Shown: positions 917 through 37,449, counted from the stretch's first letter. The stretch is DNA of 37,449 nucleotides from a virus (IMGVR_UViG_3300035703_000216:1-37449); one strand, 5' to 3'. Notes: generated by a model not told the origin, from the sequence alone. Program-made: numbers and translations.

Positions 917-1537
917 ATGGAAGCACTCAGCTGGAAAGTAGTTACTCTGCCAATGGCAGAGCTAAGGCCATTGGACAAAAACCCATTCGGCAAAATCACG
1001 GAAGAAAAGAAGCAGCGCCTCAGAGAGAAGCTCAAACGCCTGGGAAACTTCGAGGTGCCAACTGTTGACACAGATAAGGTTCTACTCACATTCAACAAGC
1101 GTTACCACTTGCTCAAGGAAATGGGTGTAGAGGAGCTTGAGGTAAAAGTTCCCAGTCGTGCGCTTACCGATCAGGAGCGGAAGGAAATTATCATTGCCTC
1201 CAATGTTCACGAGGGCGAGTGGATTAGCGAAATCCTTCAGCAAGAGTTCGCCAGTATCGACCTGGCATCCATCGGGGTAGAGCTGGATTCGTTGATGCAG
1301 GATGTTGCCAAGCGCAACACAGTTGGCGAACAGGAGGCTCCGGAAATGCCAATCGTGGCCCGGTTTTCCGAAAAGTATTCAGCCGTGATTTTGGTCGTGG
1401 AAAACGAAATCGACCTTACCCACTTGCAGGAGATCCTGGACCTGGGCACAGAAAAGAGTTACAAGTCGAATGACTCGGGGCAGACATTCGTAATCTCATT
1501 CAGTAAATTCATTGAGCGATGGAAGTCAAAATCGTAA
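917..1537 (+). CDS. ParB-like (ParB/sulfiredoxin fold) protein
   Basis: This 206-aa protein has an N-terminal ParB-like domain at about residues 8-100. The segment LPMAELRPLDKNPFGKITEE resembles the first ParB strand and loop, and FNKRYHLLKEMG sits where ParB proteins carry their G-x-R nucleotide-binding element. The C-terminal half is unassigned. The family includes CTPases and nuclease-like proteins, and phage members often accompany DNA-modifying enzymes. The gene overlaps the downstream glycosyltransferase by 19 bp, so the two are translationally coupled. No partition partner (ParA) or parS-like repeat was seen nearby, which argues against a partition role. The ATG at 917 follows the 835-863 terminator, so a promoter should lie between about 865 and 916; I could not identify it by consensus. 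Confidence 0.8.
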   Translation: MEALSWKVVTLPMAELRPLDKNPFGKITEEKKQRLREKLKRLGNFEVPTVDTDKVLLTFNKRYHLLKEMGVEELEVKVPSRALTDQERKEIIIASNVHEGEWISEILQQEFASIDLASIGVELDSLMQDVAKRNTVGEQEAPEMPIVARFSEKYSAVILVVENEIDLTHLQEILDLGTEKSYKSNDSGQTFVISFSKFIERWKSKS

Positions 1538-2256
1538 TCCCAAGCCACAAGCGGCCAAACAACATCCAGACACTTCGGCTCATTCCTGGTGCCAGTGTTT
1601 GCGTCCCCGAATCGCAGCTGGATGAATACCAGAAAGCCAATCCATCAACTCACTTCATTACCCATCCCGACAGTGTGAAGGGCTTAACCCTCAAGCGCCA
1701 ATGGATTTACGAAAACGTGGGCGATGTATTCATGTTCGATGACGACATCATGGCTATTACCCGGCTATATGTGGAACCTGGTGAGGAGCGCAATCTCACG
1801 GAGTACGAAATTTACGAACTGATCAACCGTACTGCCTGGTGTGCTAAGCAGGCAGGGGCTTTCCTTTTCGGTTTCAACAATCGGCCAAACCCTACCATGT
1901 ATCGGGCTCAGCAGCCCATCCAGCTTACGGGCTACATTACCGGTTGCGCAACCGGATTGTTGAAGGGTTCCAAACTCTGGTATAATGGGTCTATCCTGTG
2001 CAATGAAGATTACTGGATTTCCTTGCTGAATGCCTACTACCATCGGATTATCTACCGTGATAACCGTTTTGCGGTTCTACAAAAGGACACCTTCACCAGT
2101 AAGGGAGGGCTTTCTGAGATCCGAAATATCGAGGCAGAGAAGGCCGACTTCGAGTTACTCAGGAAAGTGTTTGGCGATGCCGTGGAGCTTAAGGAAGATA
2201 CCAAGCTGGCCAAGCGAAAACACCCTTACCAGAAGACGATGAAGCTGCCTTTCTAG
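1519..2256 (+). CDS. TET-associated-type glycosyltransferase (TAGT-like, GT-A fold)
   Basis: A 245-aa protein predicted to transfer a sugar onto a hydroxylated DNA base. It begins with KIVIPSHKRP, typical of the first GT-A strand, and carries a metal/nucleotide-sugar binding DDD at residues 74-76 in VFMFDDDIMAITRLYVEPG. It continues with GAFLFGF, the TGYITGCATGLLKGS segment and NEDYWISLLNAYYH, all as expected for TAGT proteins. These were described by Iyer, Aravind and colleagues beside base-oxidising enzymes in phages and other elements. Here it overlaps the ParB-like gene. No TET/JBP hydroxylase or dUMP/dCMP hydroxymethylase homologue was recognised in the window, so the acceptor base is unknown. 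Family assignment is fairly sure; substrate is inferred. Confidence 0.82.
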   Translation: MEVKIVIPSHKRPNNIQTLRLIPGASVCVPESQLDEYQKANPSTHFITHPDSVKGLTLKRQWIYENVGDVFMFDDDIMAITRLYVEPGEERNLTEYEIYELINRTAWCAKQAGAFLFGFNNRPNPTMYRAQQPIQLTGYITGCATGLLKGSKLWYNGSILCNEDYWISLLNAYYHRIIYRDNRFAVLQKDTFTSKGGLSEIRNIEAEKADFELLRKVFGDAVELKEDTKLAKRKHPYQKTMKLPF

Positions 2257-2343
2257 TGTAATACGTGAGTAGTATTTTGAGTTGAAATCATTGTTCTATA
2301 TCGTCTGTCTGCCAGATAGTTACAGTATCATTCAACACAAGCA

Positions 2344-3021
2344 ATGACTACTAGAGAACAAATTTTCCAAGTACCGGTGCCGGGGGCTACCGCTACTTAC
2401 TCGCCTCTTTCTCACGAGAATCTGGTAAATGCAGTCCTGGAGCAACTCGACAAAAAGGGTCTCCAGGTAATCGACGAGCGCTACTCCATTGCTCGTTCAG
2501 GTCAGCAGATGTTTGGAGCCTTTACCATTAACGGGGGCAACGATGAGCAAAACATTCAAATCGGTTTCCGAAACAGTTACGACAAGTCGCTGCAGGTCGG
2601 AATGGTTGGAGGTTCCCGTGTGATCGTGTGCTCCAACCTCATGTTCAAGGGCGACATCAAAACGATGATGATGCACAAGGGCGATGTGGTCAAGGAAGTA
2701 AACACCACCGTTGAAATGGTAGTGGCCACTTTGGAGAAAAACTTCAAGTCAATCCAGAAAGACACCGCCAAACTCAAGGAGGTGAAGGTTGACCCAACGG
2801 CAGTCGCCCACGTGCTCGGAGAGCTTTTCTTTCAAGAGAGTCTGGTAACCAGTACCCAGTTGCAGGTAATCAAGAACGAGCTGGTAGAGCTTCGGAACTT
2901 CGGGAAAGAAACCATGTGGGACATCTACAACCACACTACCGAAGCTCTCAAGAAGTGCCCTGCCGGTGAGATTCTGCCGGCTCACCTTAAGGTTCACGAC
3001 TTCTACCTGGCACGGGTGTAA
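2344..3021 (+). CDS. DUF932-family phage/plasmid protein
   Basis: This 225-aa soluble protein resembles the DUF932 family, which is common in phages and plasmids and has no settled biochemical role. Recognisable parts are the opening Y-S-P-L-S-H-E-N-L-V segment, an F-x-I-x-G central region ending in IQIGFRNSYDKSLQVGMVGG, and VIVCSNLMFKGD, a typical DUF932 core motif. The C-terminal half is helical. The gene sits 87 bp after the glycosyltransferase and is closed by a terminator at 3043-3076. The intergenic 2257-2343 may carry its own promoter. An 'early-DNA protection' role is only a guess. Confidence 0.78.
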   Translation: MTTREQIFQVPVPGATATYSPLSHENLVNAVLEQLDKKGLQVIDERYSIARSGQQMFGAFTINGGNDEQNIQIGFRNSYDKSLQVGMVGGSRVIVCSNLMFKGDIKTMMMHKGDVVKEVNTTVEMVVATLEKNFKSIQKDTAKLKEVKVDPTAVAHVLGELFFQESLVTSTQLQVIKNELVELRNFGKETMWDIYNHTTEALKKCPAGEILPAHLKVHDFYLARV

Positions 3022-3042
3022 CAAGGGAGTAACTTTTTCTTC

Positions 3043-3076
3043 AAAAATGCCGGTCCAAAATAGGCCCGGCATTTTT
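3043..3076 (+). terminator. Rho-independent terminator after the DUF932 gene
   Basis: An 11-bp stem (AAAAATGCCGG at 3043-3053, CCGGCATTTTT at 3066-3076) has a 12-nt loop and a run of T to 3079. It divides the modification cassette into two transcription units. Confidence 0.9.
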
Positions 3077-3122
3077 TTTAATCGACTGTGTGAGAGAAAG
3101 TTACAGTACAAACGTTTATCAA

Positions 3123-3695
3123 ATGTCAAAGTATCAACAGTTTACGCAGAAGGGTTACGACCTCGGAGAGGTGGCCTCTGCATTGCAGAAATCCGTCAGG
3201 CGTGGCCTCGAGCAAGAGGCGATGTACTGGGCGGTAGAACTATTCAACAGCAACTTCGATGAGTACTGTTGGAAGCGACTCCGGATCATGTCGTGCGAAG
3301 ATGTCGGGCTTGCCAATCCAATGGCAGCGGTCCAGATTCAGTCCTTGTATAACATGTACCTGGATTTGAAAAAGAAGAAGGAAGACGCCCAACAACCATG
3401 GCGCCTCATGCTTACTCAGGCCGTCCTCGTGCTGTGTCGGTCGGAGAAGTCCAGAGTGGTAGATCATGCGCTCATTCATTTTTGGAATACCCATCCAAAC
3501 ACAGGGAAGGACATTCCAGAGTATGCCTTGGATAAGCACACGGCCAGAGGGAAGCACAACGGCCGTGGCTGGAAGCATTTTTTCGAGGAGGGCACCTTGT
3601 TAAACCCATTGGGCGAAGTTGCAGGGGAAGATGAGTACAAGAAAATGGCTGTAAATGCCATCAAGAAACCCGTAACTCTTTTCGGCGATGAGTAG
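3123..3695 (+). CDS. Stand-alone MgsA/RarA C-terminal-domain-like protein
   Basis: The 190-aa product matches the C-terminal half of the replication-associated recombination ATPase RarA/MgsA, without the AAA+ ATPase part. The segment SALQKSVRRGLEQEAMYWAV followed by WKRLRIMSCEDVGLANP is the hallmark (R-G-S-D-x-x-A-x-Y-W and R-R-L-x-x-x-x-S-E-D-I-G-L-A in RarA). The tail HTARGKHNGRGWKHFFEEG is not standard RarA and may define a phage subfamily. I chose ATG 3123 over an upstream in-frame start at 3090 because the latter lies almost on the terminator. It overlaps the next gene by 8 bp. It may bind forks or single-strand binding protein, or interfere with host RarA; both are inferences. Confidence 0.72.
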   Translation: MSKYQQFTQKGYDLGEVASALQKSVRRGLEQEAMYWAVELFNSNFDEYCWKRLRIMSCEDVGLANPMAAVQIQSLYNMYLDLKKKKEDAQQPWRLMLTQAVLVLCRSEKSRVVDHALIHFWNTHPNTGKDIPEYALDKHTARGKHNGRGWKHFFEEGTLLNPLGEVAGEDEYKKMAVNAIKKPVTLFGDE

Positions 3696-4335
3696 CAAGA
3701 AGAAGTATCTGGAAAAGGGCCACACAGAAGAGCAGTATAAGCGCTGGGCTTCCAAGGTTGGCAAAGAGATTGACTTTCAGAAGAAGCTCCGGAAGCTGGT
3801 AGATGCCTGTCAATCTCCCTGGTCAATAATCAAGCGGATGACGGATCTGGTAGATAGAGCCATCGGTCCAAGCGATTTCGAAAGGACCATAAATACAACC
3901 AATCCCATGCAGTTGTACGGCAATTATTTGATGTACAGGAATTTCGCACAAAGTACTGGTGATCATTTGGGCGCTCTTGCCAACACGTTGACAACAGTAA
4001 AGGAGTCCTGTTTTGTGAGATGGGGAGACCGAAACCATATAACTCCAGAGATTCGGAAAAACTGGTTTTCGGAAAATTCAATCGAAATGGATGTGATTGC
4101 TCAGGAAGCAACGGGCCTTGTTGGCATCCCTGTTTGGCCAGAAGATATTGTTGAGTTTATCCTGATGCATCCTGGCGGGGTTAAAACCTACCTTCATTTT
4201 GAGCGATGCGAAATGTTGGCAGATGCGTTTTACAAGCTCACCGGCTTTCGTCTTACGAATTCATTTATTGACAGATTCAATCATGAATATCTTAAGAGAG
4301 AGCCAATTGAGCCCTGGGAAGATGTTCCCTTTTAA
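3688..4335 (+). CDS. Protein of unknown function in the modification cassette
   Basis: A 215-aa soluble protein that I do not recognise. It has a basic N-terminus, a helical segment around LVDACQSPWSIIKRMTDLVD, then conserved-looking aromatic and acidic positions (SCFVRWGDRNHITPEIRKNW, and GGVKTYLHFERCEMLADAFY). It starts within the last codons of the MgsA_C-like gene (8-bp overlap), so the two are co-translated. The position after the ParB-glycosyltransferase pair makes a DNA-modification or replication role possible, for example one of the amino acid:DNA transferase or thymine-pyrophosphorylase type families, but no motif proves this. A profile search would decide. Confidence 0.6.
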   Translation: MSSKKKYLEKGHTEEQYKRWASKVGKEIDFQKKLRKLVDACQSPWSIIKRMTDLVDRAIGPSDFERTINTTNPMQLYGNYLMYRNFAQSTGDHLGALANTLTTVKESCFVRWGDRNHITPEIRKNWFSENSIEMDVIAQEATGLVGIPVWPEDIVEFILMHPGGVKTYLHFERCEMLADAFYKLTGFRLTNSFIDRFNHEYLKREPIEPWEDVPF

Positions 4336-4350
4336 ACTGTCGTAACCCGT

Positions 4351-4382
4351 AGGCACTTGCAACCAATACCATTGCAGTGCCT
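4351..4382 (+). promoter_or_regulatory. Hairpin abutting the small terminase start codon
   Basis: AGGCACTTGCAA (4351-4362) pairs with TTGCAGTGCCT (4372-4382) with one bulged base; the ATG of the small terminase follows at once at 4383. It could control translation, act as a weak processing signal, or be part of a packaging (cos/pac) site, which often lies by the small terminase gene. Confidence 0.45.
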
Positions 4383-4937
4383 ATGCAGCAAAAGCCTGAT
4401 AAAATAGACCGGTTTAAGGAAATTGTAATCGGTCGCCGAAACGGAACCCAGAAGCAACTTGAGCAGTTGGCAAGGTTCCGTTTTGCGTTTTCCCTTGCTT
4501 GCGAAGGGTATTCCAGTTGGACGGTTGCCAATGCGCTCGAAGAAAAGTACCTCATTTCCAAAGCGCAGGCTTATCGGCTGATAACCGATGCCAAGTACAT
4601 CTTCGGCGATGCTACCCAGTTCGTGAAGGCAGGCGAACGCCGTGCCATGTACGAGTATCTGATGAAGCTGGCCAAGAAAGCGGAATCGGCCGGTGATTTC
4701 ACCACAGCCAGGAACTGCATTAAAGATGCCATCGAGCTAATGGGCTTCGATAAAGAATCCGAATCCGGTGTCGAAGATCCAATGGCCTACATGCAACCGC
4801 AGGCCTTCCTTGTCAGCGATGACTCCCGATTGCTTGATAAAGCGATTGACAAGCTGGTTGATATTGAAGATGTTGAATTTGAGATAGTTCCACTCCAAGA
4901 CGCCCATGTTGGTAAAAGCGGTTTATCTGAACAGTAA
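4383..4937 (+). CDS. terS: Probable small terminase subunit (TerS)
   Basis: The 184-aa product is called from position, directly upstream of and overlapping the large terminase by 32 bp, and from its make-up. A helix-turn-helix-like region at about residues 25-65 (RFAFSLACEGYSSWTVANAL, then KAQAYRLITDAKYIFGD) is followed by helices suited to oligomerisation. TerS recognises the packaging site on phage DNA and loads TerL. ATG 4383 is preferred to the in-frame GTG at 4377, which lies inside the hairpin described at 4351-4382. The acidic C-terminus may contact TerL. The sequence itself is not a clear match to a known TerS family. Confidence 0.68.
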   Translation: MQQKPDKIDRFKEIVIGRRNGTQKQLEQLARFRFAFSLACEGYSSWTVANALEEKYLISKAQAYRLITDAKYIFGDATQFVKAGERRAMYEYLMKLAKKAESAGDFTTARNCIKDAIELMGFDKESESGVEDPMAYMQPQAFLVSDDSRLLDKAIDKLVDIEDVEFEIVPLQDAHVGKSGLSEQ

Positions 4938-6435
4938 GCAGAAGCAATTCGTGGCCGCCAGACAGAAGCGTAAAACCTTCAAGGCTGGGCGTGGTACTGG
5001 CAAAACTCACGTTATGGGCGCACACGAGTACTGGCTTTACCGCAATCTTCCAACCGGAAAGAGCCTGATCGCATCCATAACCTTTGAGCAGTTATTGACA
5101 AAGACAATGCCGGAGATCGAGGCGAGCTGGCGGTCGTGGAACTGTTTCGAATGGGATCCTAAGCAAAGAACCGGGCATTGGGTTTTCGGCAAGAAGCCGC
5201 CGTCTCACTGGGTTAAGCCTTACAAAATGCCGAAGAACCCCGAGCGGTGCTACTTCTTTCTCAACGGGCATGTAAAAGAGCTGGCCAGTCTGGAAGTCAA
5301 TAACCGATTCCGTGGAGGCAGTTATGATTCGCTTTCCGGCGATGAGTCGGCCCTTTTCAAGAAGGAGGTCTGGGATAAAATCTTTTGTATTTCGGTTCGT
5401 GGCCGGACACGTGGCCCCCATGCATGGAAAACCGAAAACCACATGGCCGGAATGATATGTGATTTCACATCTGCGCCATGGAGACCAGAAGGCCAGTGGA
5501 TTAATGATACCAGGGAATTGGCAAAGCAGCACCCGGATAAATACTTCTGGTTGGAGGCCAGTACCTTGGACAATATTGAGTACCTGGGCGCAGAATACAT
5601 TCAGCGACTGAAAGAGACATTAAGCCCGGAAGAGTACATGGTCGAGGTGCTCAATCAGGATCTCACCAGGCCCAGCGGCGGCGGCTATTACCCGGCTTTT
5701 CGTGAAGACATCCACACGACAATTGACACCTGGGAGTATGCATACGGAGATAATGGCCGAATGACTGTTCGTCGTGATGCCTTCATTCAAGGTAATCTGC
5801 CCTTCATGGTTTCCATAGATTTCAACGTGGCGTTTACCAGTATGATAGTGGCTCAGGAGTTGCAATCGGGGGCAAAGTACCAGATCCGGATTTGCGATAA
5901 CCTATTTGTAAAGCCAGACCCAACCAAGGATCCAGACGGCCTTTTGCTTATAGATACCCTCATTGACAACTTCTGCAATAAGTATCGTTACCACCATATC
6001 AAGACAGTAGAGGTGTATGGTGATGCAACCGCAAACAACAAGAGGGTAGGGGCTCGCCCAATGTTCGACCAAGTTGTAGACAGATTCCGTAAGCATGGAT
6101 GGCTTGCAATCAATCGCAGCTCTGGCCGTTTGCCGCTGCATGAAAACCGCTTCTTCCTTATCAATAACCTGCTTGGAAAGAAAGAAACTCGTTTCCCGGA
6201 TTTGATTATCAATGCCAACACCTGCAAGGCACTGATATTGAGTATTATCAATGCGCCCATCAAGCCCGACTTCAGTAAAGACAAGCGAAGCGAATCCAGG
6301 CAAATGCCGCAAGAGTTGGCAACTCACCTTTCCGATGTGTTCGACTATCTGATCATGTCAAAGTATGGCTCACTGGTCCTCAGTTCGAGCGATAACATCT
6401 GGACTTCGTTGATCCCAAGTCGAAAGGACAGGTAG
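4906..6435 (+). CDS. terL: Large terminase subunit (ATPase-nuclease)
   Basis: A 509-aa motor that pumps DNA into the procapsid and cuts it. The N-terminal ATPase shows a Walker A P-loop AGRGTGKT at residues 27-34 and a Walker B-like stretch ending in GDESALF near residue 145. The C-terminal RNase H-like nuclease shows three acidic motifs: the D of MVSIDFNVAF near 303, the D of VYGDATANN near 372, and the D of HLSDVFDYL near 477. Length is normal for the family. The start overlaps TerS, as is usual for this pair. The 224 bp downstream (6436-6659) contain no gene. Confidence 0.95.
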   Translation: MLVKAVYLNSKQKQFVAARQKRKTFKAGRGTGKTHVMGAHEYWLYRNLPTGKSLIASITFEQLLTKTMPEIEASWRSWNCFEWDPKQRTGHWVFGKKPPSHWVKPYKMPKNPERCYFFLNGHVKELASLEVNNRFRGGSYDSLSGDESALFKKEVWDKIFCISVRGRTRGPHAWKTENHMAGMICDFTSAPWRPEGQWINDTRELAKQHPDKYFWLEASTLDNIEYLGAEYIQRLKETLSPEEYMVEVLNQDLTRPSGGGYYPAFREDIHTTIDTWEYAYGDNGRMTVRRDAFIQGNLPFMVSIDFNVAFTSMIVAQELQSGAKYQIRICDNLFVKPDPTKDPDGLLLIDTLIDNFCNKYRYHHIKTVEVYGDATANNKRVGARPMFDQVVDRFRKHGWLAINRSSGRLPLHENRFFLINNLLGKKETRFPDLIINANTCKALILSIINAPIKPDFSKDKRSESRQMPQELATHLSDVFDYLIMSKYGSLVLSSSDNIWTSLIPSRKDR

Positions 6436-6659: not shown

Positions 6660-6995
6660 ATGGAACACAGCGGAAATACAGAAATTCGGATACAGCAGGC
6701 ACTGACAGCCATCCGAACCTCGATGCAGCCGTTTTCGATTGAGTTTTTCCGAGTCGATGGCTCCGGAAGGACCAGAAAAGAAAATGTTTGTCTTGGTGTG
6801 CCGCCAAAACCTCGAACTGCAAAGCCTTCAGCCGAAGGCGCTGGTTCGCCTTCAAAGGTTTGGAATCACCAGATCAATCAATCCCATAACCTCTTGCTTT
6901 TCGATATGAATGCAATGCGGCCTTTCGAAGTAAAAATCTGCCTGTTAATGGCCTTTAACGATTACAAAATCCGTTGGCATGTCGCAAAAAAATGA
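6660..6995 (+). CDS. Small hypothetical protein between terminase and portal
   Basis: A 111-aa soluble protein that I do not recognise. It has a Pro/Lys/Ala-rich low-complexity middle (about residues 48-66) and a C-terminus with KICLLMAFNDYKIRWHVAKK. It overlaps the portal start by 17 bp, suggesting co-translation and a role in head or connector assembly. The first ATG at 6660 sits directly behind a hairpin; an internal ATG at 6723 is an alternative. Confidence 0.6.
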   Translation: MEHSGNTEIRIQQALTAIRTSMQPFSIEFFRVDGSGRTRKENVCLGVPPKPRTAKPSAEGAGSPSKVWNHQINQSHNLLLFDMNAMRPFEVKICLLMAFNDYKIRWHVAKK

Positions 6996-8283
6996 TTACT
7001 CGGGCTATGTAGCCTTTCTCCCAAAAAGCAGGGCTGTCGTTTCGGTAACCGAATCGAAGAACACGCCCGCAAGCAAGGGGAAAAAGAAAATTGAAGGGGT
7101 TGATTATGCGCCCTGGGGCTCCGACGACAAACTTCCGGACCGGATATTGCAAGCTGTTTGGGAGAATAGCTTCATGCCCCAATTGCTGGAAACCAGTACT
7201 CAGTTTCTTCATGGTCAGGGCCTTGGCGTTTTCCGGAAAAGGATAGTACCTGGAACTGATACCCGACCAGGAACCGTATTGCTGGATCCAATTGATGCAG
7301 CAACGCAGGCCCCGGACGTTCAGCGGTGGATGGAATTGGTTGATTTGCAGTCGTATTGGTTAGCTGCATGTAACCAATATCCAGTTTCCTACAATGTGTT
7401 CACTGGTTACCAGCTAAACATTGAAGGTAAAGTCGTGAAAATGAAAGTACACGACTGGGCAATCTCACGGACTGCGCTCCGCGACTTGCGTACTGGGCAA
7501 ATTGAATCCATCCTTCTTTTTTCCGAATACATCGACGACGATGGAACAAAGAAAAAAGCCAGAGTAGTGCCACGGTATTACGCTGGCATTGAAAAGGTGA
7601 AGCCAGACTTCATCTACCACGCCAGAAACTTAACAAGTGGCCAAAGTTCTTACGCTTTGCCCAGTTGGTTTGGGGCTTTGGAGACCATCGAGGTGCTAAA
7701 CCGGATCCCACGGTTCCACGCATCGGGAATTGACAACGGGTACAACGTGAAGTACCACGTGAAAGTACCTGCGGTGTATTTCGACCAGTTCAGTACGCAG
7801 GAGGCAAAGGATAAAGCCTGGGGAGAGCTGCAAGACCAGATGGACGAACAGCTCTGCGGCACTGACAATGTGAACAAAGCGGTACTGACAAAGTTCTTCC
7901 TTGACCCTATCACCAATAAGCCCCTTCCTGGATTCGACATCGTCCCCCTGCAATCGGTCCAGGTGGACGAGCAGTACTTGAAACTGCATGAGAGCTTCCG
8001 CTCTGCGGCTGCCAGTGGGGTAGGACTTCACCCGGGCCTAGCCAATGTGGACACCGGAGGGAAACTCGGAGGCACGGCCTCGGAAATGCGGGTGGCAGCA
8101 CAGCTTCACCAGGAGCTCAAAACCCCGATCCCCCGCATGCTATTGCTTCGCCCGATTCAGTTGGCGATGAAAATCAATGGATTCGATCCTTCCCTGGTGA
8201 TTGCACCCAAAGACTTCACCCTTCAGACCTTGGACACCAACCCGACCGGATCTTCAAAAGTTGTAAGCAATGCCACTACTTAA
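6979..8283 (+). CDS. Phage portal protein
   Basis: The 434-aa product fits the dodecameric portal through which DNA enters and leaves the head. Support comes from size, place after the large terminase, the early segment GSDDKLPDRILQAVWENSFM, and the C-terminal LHPGLANVDTGGKLGGTASE, a pattern typical of portal proteins of Bacteroidetes phages (SGVxP-like loop followed by a G-T-x-S-E-M helix). It has no membrane segments. The gene ends inside the next gene (14-bp overlap). Confidence 0.82.
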   Translation: MSQKNDYSGYVAFLPKSRAVVSVTESKNTPASKGKKKIEGVDYAPWGSDDKLPDRILQAVWENSFMPQLLETSTQFLHGQGLGVFRKRIVPGTDTRPGTVLLDPIDAATQAPDVQRWMELVDLQSYWLAACNQYPVSYNVFTGYQLNIEGKVVKMKVHDWAISRTALRDLRTGQIESILLFSEYIDDDGTKKKARVVPRYYAGIEKVKPDFIYHARNLTSGQSSYALPSWFGALETIEVLNRIPRFHASGIDNGYNVKYHVKVPAVYFDQFSTQEAKDKAWGELQDQMDEQLCGTDNVNKAVLTKFFLDPITNKPLPGFDIVPLQSVQVDEQYLKLHESFRSAAASGVGLHPGLANVDTGGKLGGTASEMRVAAQLHQELKTPIPRMLLLRPIQLAMKINGFDPSLVIAPKDFTLQTLDTNPTGSSKVVSNATT

Positions 8284-29336: not shown

Positions 29337-29713
29337 GCCAACTATCCCTCGACTTCCGAAGCCCAGACGATATGCTGGTAAGTATCATTTTCCAGTCTAA
29401 GAATGGCATCCTGGAAGTACTTCATAAGGTAGTAATTCAGTTTCAGGTACATAAGCCTGGCTATCCACCAGCTTGTGCCTTTACGGGAATACCAGAAAAC
29501 TGGTTCCGGATTTTTGGCTACCAATCCATTCAGGAAGCCATTCCCGGCCTCGCTTCATCCAGCCGAATGCAGGTCGAGTGCCGGTATTCGCCCAAACAAT
29601 CGGGCATCGAGATTTTCCATGTCTTACATGCCTGGGCAAAGGCCAGCGGCTACCGAATAGAGCCAGCAGCGGGCACCCTCCGTCAATACAATTTAATCGG
29701 TTTAACCCCATGA
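29333..29713 (+). CDS. Hypothetical early protein
   Basis: A 126-aa alpha/beta protein without recognised motifs (central PGYPPACAFTGIPENWFRIF). It overlaps the HNH stop (ATGA) and the ASCH start (ATGA) by 4 bp each. Confidence 0.62.
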   Translation: MSQLSLDFRSPDDMLVSIIFQSKNGILEVLHKVVIQFQVHKPGYPPACAFTGIPENWFRIFGYQSIQEAIPGLASSSRMQVECRYSPKQSGIEIFHVLHAWAKASGYRIEPAAGTLRQYNLIGLTP

Positions 29714-30345
29714 AATTCATTCCAATCTTATTCAGCACGGCCATGGTGCAAGCTATTCTCGATGGCCGCAAAACCCAGACCCGCAGGCTGATAAAGCAAG
29801 CAGTGGCCTGGGATCCGGTTTGGAGACCTACCGCAATTCAGGAACAGCACCCTGATGGGATACCGCGATTTGTAATGCGTGCAGGGCATCAATATTCTTT
29901 GCCTTGGTTCAAATGCCCATACGGCCAGCCCGGAGATATTCTCTGGGTAAGGGAAACGTGGGCACCTGCACTTGGCAAATACGCTTACAAGGCAGACTAT
30001 TCCGAAGCGGTTTTGTCGGAGGAAAGAAACAAAGGTTTGTGGAAACCATCCATTCACATGCCGAAGGATGCCTGCCGTACCTGGCTTCGGGTAAAGTCGG
30101 TAAGGGTGGATCCGCTTAAGGGAATCTCAGAAGCAGATGCTATCGCTGAGGGCATCGAAGTTCACCAACGGGGAGGTATTACCTGGTACAACGACTATCT
30201 AATCCCTGGCTCCCCCTGCGACAAAGCATATCAAAGCTTCCGCACGTTGTGGTGTTCTATCAACGGGTTTGAATCCTGGTCCTCAAACCCATGGGTATGG
30301 GTTGTAGAGTTCGAAAAGTTGGATGGTAAACCGGAAGGATTCTGA
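29710..30345 (+). CDS. ASCH-domain (PUA-like) phage protein
   Basis: A 211-aa protein with the ASCH opening FIPILFSTAMVQAILDGRKT followed by QTRR, the PGDILWVRETWAP core, and WLRVKSVRVDPLKGISEADA. ASCH domains have a PUA-like fold and bind RNA or modified nucleobases; phage members are frequent and mostly uncharacterised. ATG 29710 overlaps the upstream stop; the longer frame from 29473 runs through another gene and is not used. A reader or processor of modified DNA or RNA is possible, given the ParB-glycosyltransferase cassette, but this is inference. Confidence 0.84.
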   Translation: MKFIPILFSTAMVQAILDGRKTQTRRLIKQAVAWDPVWRPTAIQEQHPDGIPRFVMRAGHQYSLPWFKCPYGQPGDILWVRETWAPALGKYAYKADYSEAVLSEERNKGLWKPSIHMPKDACRTWLRVKSVRVDPLKGISEADAIAEGIEVHQRGGITWYNDYLIPGSPCDKAYQSFRTLWCSINGFESWSSNPWVWVVEFEKLDGKPEGF

Positions 30346-30548: not shown

Positions 30549-30632
30549 CATGTCCTACTCCCAGCCATGCGGAAGCGTGTAGAATTGGCTTTCGTTTTAC
30601 AAAACCATCTTTCAACAAAAACAAAAAGAACC

Positions 30633-30968
30633 ATGAGAATTTTCATCGGATTGCTTCTCGGCCTGGCGTTCTGCCTCTCTGTGCCCTCCTTCGCAACCTC
30701 CCCATTGCCAGACGGCGACCGCCTTGTGGTGGTAGATCACCAGGATGTTGACCTTATTGCCGACATCCTCCAGCTGGCCAGTGTGCAGTACCAGTACCAG
30801 GCTGGGCGTGGTGTAGACTTTGTGCCGGTCTGCATCTACGGGAGTTACCACTTCGACACCGCCACTACCTGGGCGCCGGAGTTTGGCTCAGTACGAATGG
30901 CCCTGCAATACACGGGGCACCAGGCCAAGGTGTACCGAGGCGAAAGAGCTTACCTCCTTAAAATATAG
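30633..30968 (+). CDS. Small secreted protein between twin terminators
   Basis: A 111-aa protein with a signal peptide (IFIGLLLGLAFCLSVPSFA, residues 3-21). The mature part is beta-rich with many Tyr/Gln. ATG 30633 is chosen because it begins the signal peptide; the in-frame ATG at 30567 would add a polar leader. It has a terminator on each side with almost identical stems, so it is an independent accessory unit, probably expressed in its own right. Function is unknown. Confidence 0.7.
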   Translation: MRIFIGLLLGLAFCLSVPSFATSPLPDGDRLVVVDHQDVDLIADILQLASVQYQYQAGRGVDFVPVCIYGSYHFDTATTWAPEFGSVRMALQYTGHQAKVYRGERAYLLKI

Positions 30969-35630: not shown

Positions 35631-36617
35631 ATGGCGATTGACATTTCCGGCCTACCCTCCTTGCTTAAGGATCAGTACCGGCAAATCAAACCCGAGTTCC
35701 TCAGCAACCTGTTGATTGAGGATATGCCGTTCAAAAAATACATGCAGGTAGAGCCTGGTGTAAGCGATGAACTGACCTTCCCCAAGATGGTAGTAAACAA
35801 TGTGTTGCAGCCAGGGGCAAAGGATACCACCAACTTTACCACTTTGGCCGCTGCCAAGGCCCGTACTGGAAAAGTACGTCCGGTAAAAGTTGATCTTCGT
35901 TGGACTCCAACCCAGATGCAGGCATTGGTGAAATCATTCATGTCGCACCTTAAGCGGGAGAAGCTTACCTACGACGATCTTCCATTTGCAGAGTGGTTCT
36001 TGCCAATGGTGAGCGCCGCCGCCAAGAACGACCTGGCACGTACATTGGTCTGGAAAGGCGTCTACAACAATTCCAACTCTGGAACTGTGGATTGCTTCGA
36101 TGGTCTTATCACCATCGCATCTCGTTCGGCCACTTACAACGCCAGCACCAATCCAAACCCTGGTCTTCCAACGGGGCAGATTGTTGACTCCATTGTTGGA
36201 GGGATCACCCTTGCTGCAGCTGTAGCAGAGGTGGAGAAGTTGATCGATAAAGTGCCGATGGCTGACCTTGCCGCTTACGAGTGGGCGTTGGTTTGCGATC
36301 CGCAAATCGAGAAACTGTACGCTCGTGGATACCGTGCCGATTTCGGTACCGTAATCTACAACGACAGCTTCGAGAAGAAGTCGCCAGACGGTGCTCCTAC
36401 CGTTGAGTTTGTTGGAGAAGTAGGGTTGGCAGGCACTGGCCATGCATTCCTCCTTCCAAAGAACACCGCCCGATTCATTGCAGACGATGAGTCGCAGGTC
36501 GATGCACTTACCGTTGAGGTGGCCGACCGAAACGTTAAGGTGTTCCTCGACTTCCAGGCTGGAGTTGAGTTTGCCGAGATCGATAACGTGTACTGGTACA
36601 AATTCCGGGCATCCTAA
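35631..36617 (+). CDS. Major capsid protein (HK97-like)
   Basis: A 328-aa protein making the head shell. It follows the protease-scaffold, as is standard, and shows typical features of the Bacteroidota-phage capsid group: an N-terminal helix and arm region (DQYRQIKPEFLSNLLIEDMP), then a long central alpha/beta core, and an ending (VFLDFQAGVEFAEIDNVYWY) that resembles HK97-fold major capsid C-termini. No long N-terminal pro-region is seen, since the scaffold is separate. It has the expected size and no membrane or signal features. Confidence 0.85.
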   Translation: MAIDISGLPSLLKDQYRQIKPEFLSNLLIEDMPFKKYMQVEPGVSDELTFPKMVVNNVLQPGAKDTTNFTTLAAAKARTGKVRPVKVDLRWTPTQMQALVKSFMSHLKREKLTYDDLPFAEWFLPMVSAAAKNDLARTLVWKGVYNNSNSGTVDCFDGLITIASRSATYNASTNPNPGLPTGQIVDSIVGGITLAAAVAEVEKLIDKVPMADLAAYEWALVCDPQIEKLYARGYRADFGTVIYNDSFEKKSPDGAPTVEFVGEVGLAGTGHAFLLPKNTARFIADDESQVDALTVEVADRNVKVFLDFQAGVEFAEIDNVYWYKFRAS

Positions 36618-37235: not shown

Positions 37236-37449
37236 ATGGAAGAGATCAAAAGCAGAGTCCTCGCCTGGTTAGAATCTGAGGCCAAGGACTACAACCAAGG
37301 CATCTTTCTTGCAAGCCAGGTCCTTACCAACAAAAACATGGTCTTCCGTTTGGCCAAGAAAGAAACGGTTGACAACCTCGATAAACTCGTTTACGAGCTC
37401 TCGGCATTTTATGGAGTAGAGTATAAGCCGCATGCTGAAGCCAGCCGTG
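37236..37449 (+). CDS. Coiled-coil phage protein, 5' part
   Basis: ATG 37236 opens MEEIKSRVLAWLESEAKDYN, and the frame continues without a break at position 3 of the window. This is the same gene as the one ending at 806. The start follows the 37196-37223 terminator by 12 bp, so transcription must read through the terminator or start very close to the gene. Confidence 0.85.
   Translation, partial: MEEIKSRVLAWLESEAKDYNQGIFLASQVLTNKNMVFRLAKKETVDNLDKLVYELSAFYGVEYKPHAEASR
37267..37449. repeat. Terminal direct repeat, right copy
   Basis: This is the second copy of the first 183 bases. It lies inside the 5' part of the coiled-coil gene that begins at 37236 and continues from position 3 onward at the left end. 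Confidence 0.97.

Follow-up and report, generated by a model that had tools for sequence, protein, structure and literature searches.

A ParB-like protein paired with a TAGT-family glycosyltransferase as a possible DNA-glycosylation module of phages

Main finding

The window analysed here is the whole 37,449-nucleotide stretch of a virus record (IMGVR_UViG_3300035703_000216:1-37449), in which a ParB-like gene (917–1537) and a TAGT gene (1519–2256) are proposed to form a two-protein DNA-glycosylation module, a reading held with moderate confidence (probability about 0.58) and with its chemistry inferred. DNA was inferred as the substrate because of the enzyme family, the genomic slot and the exchange in that slot with TET and Mom, and the ParB-like protein was inferred as a steering partner because the pairing is obligate and its C-terminal domain tracks the type of TAGT. 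Against the module, cell-surface enzymes such as TarP have a GT-A fold too. A sequence-only reading of the window had interpreted the region as a DNA-modification cassette without a hydroxylase, which gene context supports, with DNA as substrate remaining an inference.

In the proposed mechanism, the TAGT would act as a metal-dependent GT-A enzyme, transferring sugar from a host nucleotide-sugar onto phage DNA, and the ParB-like protein would be its dedicated DNA-side partner, holding or steering it on DNA, with the ParB C-terminal domain as the likely contact. The pair, beside the terminase genes, would probably be expressed late, the DNA would be marked after replication and before packaging, and the marking would let phage DNA escape restriction. 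The DNA substrate, the targeting role of ParB, the late timing and the anti-restriction function are all inferred.

Source genome and gene order

The window carries a direct terminal repeat of 183 bp with one mismatch, and was therefore treated as a near-complete phage genome. An integrase is encoded (Pfam), on which basis the phage is temperate, and its relatives are Cytophagales prophages.

On the plus strand, the gene for the ParB-like partner (917–1537, 206 aa; ParB/sulfiredoxin-type N-domain at about residues 1–105, C-terminal beta-alpha-beta-alpha domain at about 150–206) overlaps by 19 bp the gene for the TAGT-family GT-A glycosyltransferase (1519–2256, 245 aa; conserved D74-D75-D76, E163-D164 and G196-G197). 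These are followed on the same strand by a DUF932 gene (2344–3021; Pfam E 1.5e-8), accessory and restricted to Hymenobacter-type relatives, a lone MgsA/RarA C-terminal domain (3123–3695, longest form from 3090; MgsA_C, Pfam E 8e-11), found between TAGT and terminase in about half of ParB–TAGT loci, and a conserved unknown of Cytophagales prophages (3688–4335), whose profile differs from TET/JBP and which overlaps the MgsA/RarA gene by 8 bp. Next, again on the plus strand, are a putative small terminase subunit (4377–4937), assigned by position and synteny only, the large terminase subunit (4906–6435; PHROG 2, E 5.8e-16) and the portal protein (6979–8283; PHROG 12, E 9.8e-7), so that by PHROGs both large terminase and portal lie downstream of the pair. 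In relatives, a head-maturation protease lies upstream of it (PHROG 53, E 9.8e-55). For a gene at 35631–36617, perhaps encoding a capsid protein, PDB profile search was uninformative. The sequence-only reading had listed the same five ORFs from 917 to 4335 with both overlaps, and had placed the cassette within the late structural region; all of these claims held, the last by the protease 5′ in relatives and terminase and portal 3′.

The TAGT-family glycosyltransferase

The product of 1519–2256 matched PF20691 (TAGT) in Pfam (E 6.8e-22; score 78.9 bits, cut-off 27.5; profile positions 2–205 of 205) and PHROG 842 (beta-glucosyl-HMC-alpha-glucosyltransferase; E 6.7e-27); phmmer against PDB sequences gave no match, and no NCBIfam family was found for it. 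The AF2 model (pLDDT 93, pTM 0.90) has a GT-A fold, for which the nearest solved structures by Foldseek were TarP, WrtF and B4GALNT1, and the nearest viral models were named TAGTs and a Klebsiella phage beta-glucosyl-HMC-alpha-glucosyltransferase (TM 0.74–0.78); the match to phage TAGTs is closer than that to surface enzymes. The earlier TAGT-type assignment held by Pfam, PHROGs and fold, and lack of a GT-A fold, which would have refuted it, was checked and not borne out, a GT-A fold being predicted. The catalytic GT-A core is predicted by the model to be intact, with activity inferred.

Residues R12, G55, D75-D76, E163-D164 and G196-G197 are common to hydroxylase-linked and hydroxylase-free TAGTs, with D75-D76 invariant, whereas 96–97% of hydroxylase-free TAGTs, but 0 of 12 others, have P133 and R176. 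In a tree, most TET- and hydroxymethylase-linked TAGTs were separate from the 62 hydroxylase-free rows, with uncertain placement of a small number of long branches (e.g. L187); since these linked enzymes lie mostly outside the window's group, their substrate may not carry over to it.

The ParB-like protein

The ParB-like protein (917–1537) was missed by Pfam and matched PHROG 620 (E 8.9e-14). A profile of its family found 4umk (E 3.2e-12) and 6sdk (7.8e-12) among PDB sequences, and Foldseek matched the predicted model to 5k5d (6e-7). In this model (pLDDT 81), an N-domain like those of ParB, Noc, PadC and sulfiredoxin is followed by a helical linker and a C-terminal beta-alpha-beta-alpha unit; the earlier ParB-like assignment held by PHROG 620, PDB profile and fold. 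The ParB profile alignment spans positions 3–128, which is the N-domain and little beyond. The family retains a G-x-x-R motif and an Asn, with Phe59 in place of the Gly and Ser-Asn in place of Glu/Asp-Asn in the window, and because the motif Gly is replaced by Phe, nucleotide-dependent DNA clamping is doubtful there; the family as such could form a nucleotide-driven clamp like that of chromosomal ParB. Canonical partition ParBs also have a helix-turn-helix domain that binds parS, and a ParA partner; Pfam scans of the window, which did not include a dedicated ParA search, showed no ParA.

The C-terminal domain was present in 84/84 ParBs paired with hydroxylase-free TAGTs, against 0/78 ParBs beside Mom, TET and other genes, with the caveat that the profile had been trained on a subset of the 84 and that a pattern inside the domain had served to find some of them. 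A stricter profile, trained on 15 window-side sequences and tested on loci found by TAGT, detected the domain in 29/29 distant ParBs (one of which, L071, was also in training) and in 0/83 controls (0/3 and 0/80).

Distribution of the pair

The window TAGT, used as query, hit 15 viral contigs together with 20 loci in bacteria, among them Hymenobacter, Runella, Arundinibacter, Larkinella and Dyadobacter, and a TAGT alignment scan yielded 68 viral loci at identities down to 24%. Of these 68, 10 were duplicates, 2 lacked upstream sequence and 1 yielded no TAGT ORF; the other 55, all distinct and found by TAGT alone, have ParB adjacent upstream in 41, one gene away in 14 and absent in none. The two ORFs overlap in 36 of the 41 adjacent loci, and a reverse scan with ParB found TAGT in all loci except one (L142). 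Terminase genes come after the pair in most loci, and among the neighbours ParB is the most constant. The pair is carried by phages of Bacteroidota, Streptococcus and Microbacterium as well as by numerous uncultured ones; examples are the annotated genome of Streptococcus phage Javan291, whose TAGT as a query against viral contigs gave only one further locus, and the cultivated Microbacterium phage KaiHaiDragon (order ParB, small ORF, TAGT, UDP-glucose dehydrogenase).

Inserts in ParB–TAGT loci were sugar or small-molecule enzymes, including class I and FkbM methyltransferases and PIG-L deacetylase, and relatives have sugar-tailoring genes close to the pair, namely FkbM, PIG-L, WbqC, epimerases, UDP-glucose dehydrogenase and a second TAGT; such neighbours are compatible with any glycan. 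An N6-methyltransferase, common in Cytophagales relatives, was considered as a missing partner and rejected, being absent from the window. The pair was not described in the open-access literature searched; that search excluded Iyer 2013, reportedly the founding TAGT paper, and Lee 2025, which reportedly concerns glycosylated 5-hydroxycytosine, so earlier notice is possible.

It could be supposed that ParB serves in plasmid-type partition or as a nuclease and that its link to TAGT is functionless, as public records and PHROGs annotate the ParB-like gene as partition protein or nuclease. Against this, the pair is conserved, with overlapping ORFs, across the phage groups named above, and the C-terminal domain tracks TAGT type; this explanation is considered very unlikely.

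Genes in the slot after ParB

For a wider ParB survey, the ParB of L142, in which Mom lies directly after ParB (PF25680, E 8.8e-35), was used as query, and the 80 best of about 600 loci were kept. Pfam was run on 68 genes downstream of ParB (11 of 79 picked ORFs were dropped, being short or terminase genes), giving Mom in 31, TAGT in 13, TET/JBP in 7, an ABC-type ATPase in 6 (3 with GNAT domains), C5-methyltransferase in 3 and FkbM in 3. TET/JBP occurred in 25 loci, in 12 of them together with TAGT, and in L102–L104 the genes follow in the order ParB, TET/JBP and a related TAGT. Since Mom, TAGT, TET/JBP and C5-methyltransferase share one slot, members of this ParB family go together with DNA base modifiers.

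In a rival explanation, the sugar acceptor of TAGT is a protein of the virion or a glycan on the host surface (lysogenic or serotype conversion, compare prophage TarP), with ParB a mere neighbour or regulator. In its favour, the closest solved structures are TarP, WrtF and other GT-A enzymes, some relatives have sugar-tailoring genes nearby, and the phage is temperate by its integrase. Against it, the ParB pairing is obligate, the location is between head genes and terminase, Mom, TET and C5-methyltransferase occupy the same slot, phage TAGTs match its structure better than surface enzymes do, and the pair is also found in lytic phages, KaiHaiDragon belonging to the Quhwah group, which is described as lytic without integrase (PMC7302621). 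This explanation is considered improbable.

Absence of known hydroxylases

No TET/JBP, Mom or thymidylate-synthase/hydroxymethylase was found in the window, with Mom and TET sought in any frame, and because the window is near-complete, the missing hydroxylase counts as a true absence. Company of TET/JBP or a pyrimidine hydroxymethylase is typical of PF20691 members, but the profile does not demand it. The search was extended to 76 records, comprising 72 ParB–TAGT records of the window's kind, two TET/JBP records (L102 and L103 type), the ParB–Mom locus L142, and L018, in which TAGT lies beside a hydroxymethylase (PF00303) without ParB. Neither TET/JBP nor a thymidylate-synthase-type hydroxymethylase (Tet_JBP, PF00303) was found in any of the 72, which include the window, complete Javan291 and KaiHaiDragon; 39 of them exceed 30 kb, the others being clearly fragments. 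PF12851 gave no match in one record batch, but the same profile matched in another. The 5-hydroxycytosine route falls under PF00303 as well, its synthase being of the same superfamily (PMC13390438). For these known families (TET/JBP and PF00303), absence of a hydroxylase is a trait of the whole ParB–TAGT subgroup.

The sequence-only reading had likewise claimed no recognisable TET/JBP or hydroxymethylase in this genome, which held and applies subgroup-wide; its two candidate sources of the acceptor fared less well. The 3688–4335 product, suggested to make an oxidised base, had no confident family match in Pfam, PHROGs or NCBIfam, and as a hidden TET oxygenase it was rejected (profile comparison probability 0.2%, no convincing PDB match), leaving that suggestion unsupported. 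A distant ASCH protein, suggested to make or read the base, was not confirmed, as Pfam reported no ASCH domain for the main ORFs scanned, and ORF 30567–30968, compared with PHROGs only, had no match there.

Sugars of the described route in phage DNA are carried on hydroxymethylated or hydroxylated cytosine from a thymidylate-synthase-type enzyme (PMC13390438), and gene context suggests the TET/JBP product as an alternative acceptor. Since the known sources of such bases are absent, the acceptor in the window's subgroup is probably made or chosen otherwise. A conservative rival holds that it is nevertheless an ordinary hydroxylated or hydroxymethylated base, supplied by a host enzyme or an unrecognised phage oxygenase or synthase, with TAGT and ParB acting as in TET–TAGT systems. 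This is supported by the related ParB–TET–TAGT operons (12 loci), by the hydroxymethylase adjoining TAGT in L018, by the TAGT of known reaction, which acts on such a base (PMC13216743), and by Krischvirus, which has modified cytidine without a recognised synthase (PMC13390438). Against it, TET/JBP and PF00303 are absent from all subgroup records, near-complete ones, Javan291 and KaiHaiDragon included, ParB is the most constant neighbour, 3688–4335 is unlike TET and the window is near-complete; this rival is regarded as unlikely.

Within the favoured module, a bolder reading is that ParB guides direct attachment of sugar to a base that has undergone neither hydroxylation nor hydroxymethylation, by a route that would span temperate and lytic phages whose hosts belong to three or more bacterial phyla. 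Both parts of this reading are possibilities only; direct sugar attachment to a non-hydroxylated DNA base is not known to occur.

Significance and comparison with known systems

A large TAGT subgroup lacks known hydroxylases and has ParB as its sole constant companion; if the DNA of this subgroup is glycosylated, then either its base chemistry or the way in which its acceptor is made must be new. The results also suggest a function for many phage 'ParB' genes, as partners of DNA base modifiers beside terminase. Early testing is feasible, as there are cultivated Microbacterium phages such as KaiHaiDragon and Quhwah, and cultured Hymenobacter, Runella and Arundinibacter carry closely related prophages.

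In published work, solitary TAGT homologues were reported in 288/753 phage genomes (PMC13216743); like the window TAGT, these are without alpha- or beta-GT, and ParB, the slot and the C-terminal domain are not mentioned there. In the passages of PMC7302621 consulted, no DNA-modification reading is offered. Krischvirus, with modified cytidines though no recognised synthase or glucosyltransferase, is a precedent for unknown routes (PMC13390438).

The T2/T6 beta-glucosyl-HMC-alpha-glucosyltransferase shares with the window TAGT the PF20691/PHROG family, the GT-A fold, the acidic metal motif and the ED pair. The T6 TAGT-family enzyme glucosylates DNA (PMC13216743, PMC13390438), and in T6-like phages TAGT adds a second glucose (PMC13390438); the T6 enzyme thus extends a sugar already on hydroxymethylcytosine, whereas the window has no hydroxymethylase and no alpha/beta-GT and has an obligate ParB partner. 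TarP, a prophage wall-teichoic-acid glycosyltransferase, is likewise phage-encoded with a GT-A fold, but it acts on a cell-wall substrate, is a weaker structural match than phage TAGTs and is not known to be paired with ParB.

On the ParB side, Mom (PF25680) lies directly after the ParB-like gene in relatives, in the slot of TAGT, but is an unrelated acyltransferase-type enzyme modifying adenine rather than a glycosyltransferase. ParB–DNA methyltransferase proteins (PHROG 498) also tie a ParB N-domain to a DNA base modifier, although this is a methyltransferase family, and the window ParB is a separate protein paired with a glycosyltransferase. The TET/JBP–TAGT operons (including L102–L104 and L155–L209) share with the window an upstream ParB-like gene and a TAGT-family enzyme; they differ in that TET/JBP is included, ParB is without the C-terminal domain and their TAGTs lie mostly outside the window's group.

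Gene neighbourhood of the ParB-TAGT pair

Roughly 40 of 81 loci, distant phages included, encode a stand-alone MgsA/RarA C-terminal domain downstream of ParB-TAGT (3123-3695 in the window; further examples are L061, L070, L128 and L138), and its gene is one of the most conserved neighbours of the pair. Most relatives carry an N6-DNA-methyltransferase gene between TAGT and terminase (L003:11122-11943 and about 20 Cytophagales loci), which is absent from the window. The site directly after TAGT is a variable cargo slot, with an AbiEii-like ATPase in one locus (L030:8920-10908), a trypsin-like protease in another (L032:8760-9542) and an S74 protein in a third (L012:8762-10471). Farther along than this slot, L002:11062-11922 encodes an ArdC-type anti-restriction protein.

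In L128-L140, PIG-L deacetylase and WbqC genes adjoin ParB-TAGT, suggesting a tailored amino sugar in these phages. Five separate ParB-TAGT prophage loci were observed in the single genome of Arundinibacter roseus (L025-L029).

Window ends and gene 29473-30345

Positions 1-183 and 37267-37449 form a 183-bp direct terminal repeat with one mismatch. The contig likely closes into a circle at this repeat, with the first ORF running on over the join in an open frame of 306 residues. The gene at 29473-30345 strongly matched a phage family without a known function, PHROG 874 (E 8.3e-66).

Other occupants of the ParB slot

The position after ParB, which elsewhere holds Mom, TAGT, TET/JBP or a C5-methyltransferase, is occupied in L161 (444-1499), L163, L166 and L198 by an ABC-type ATPase gene, some apparently with a GNAT domain, and this ATPase is possibly an additional base modifier of the slot.
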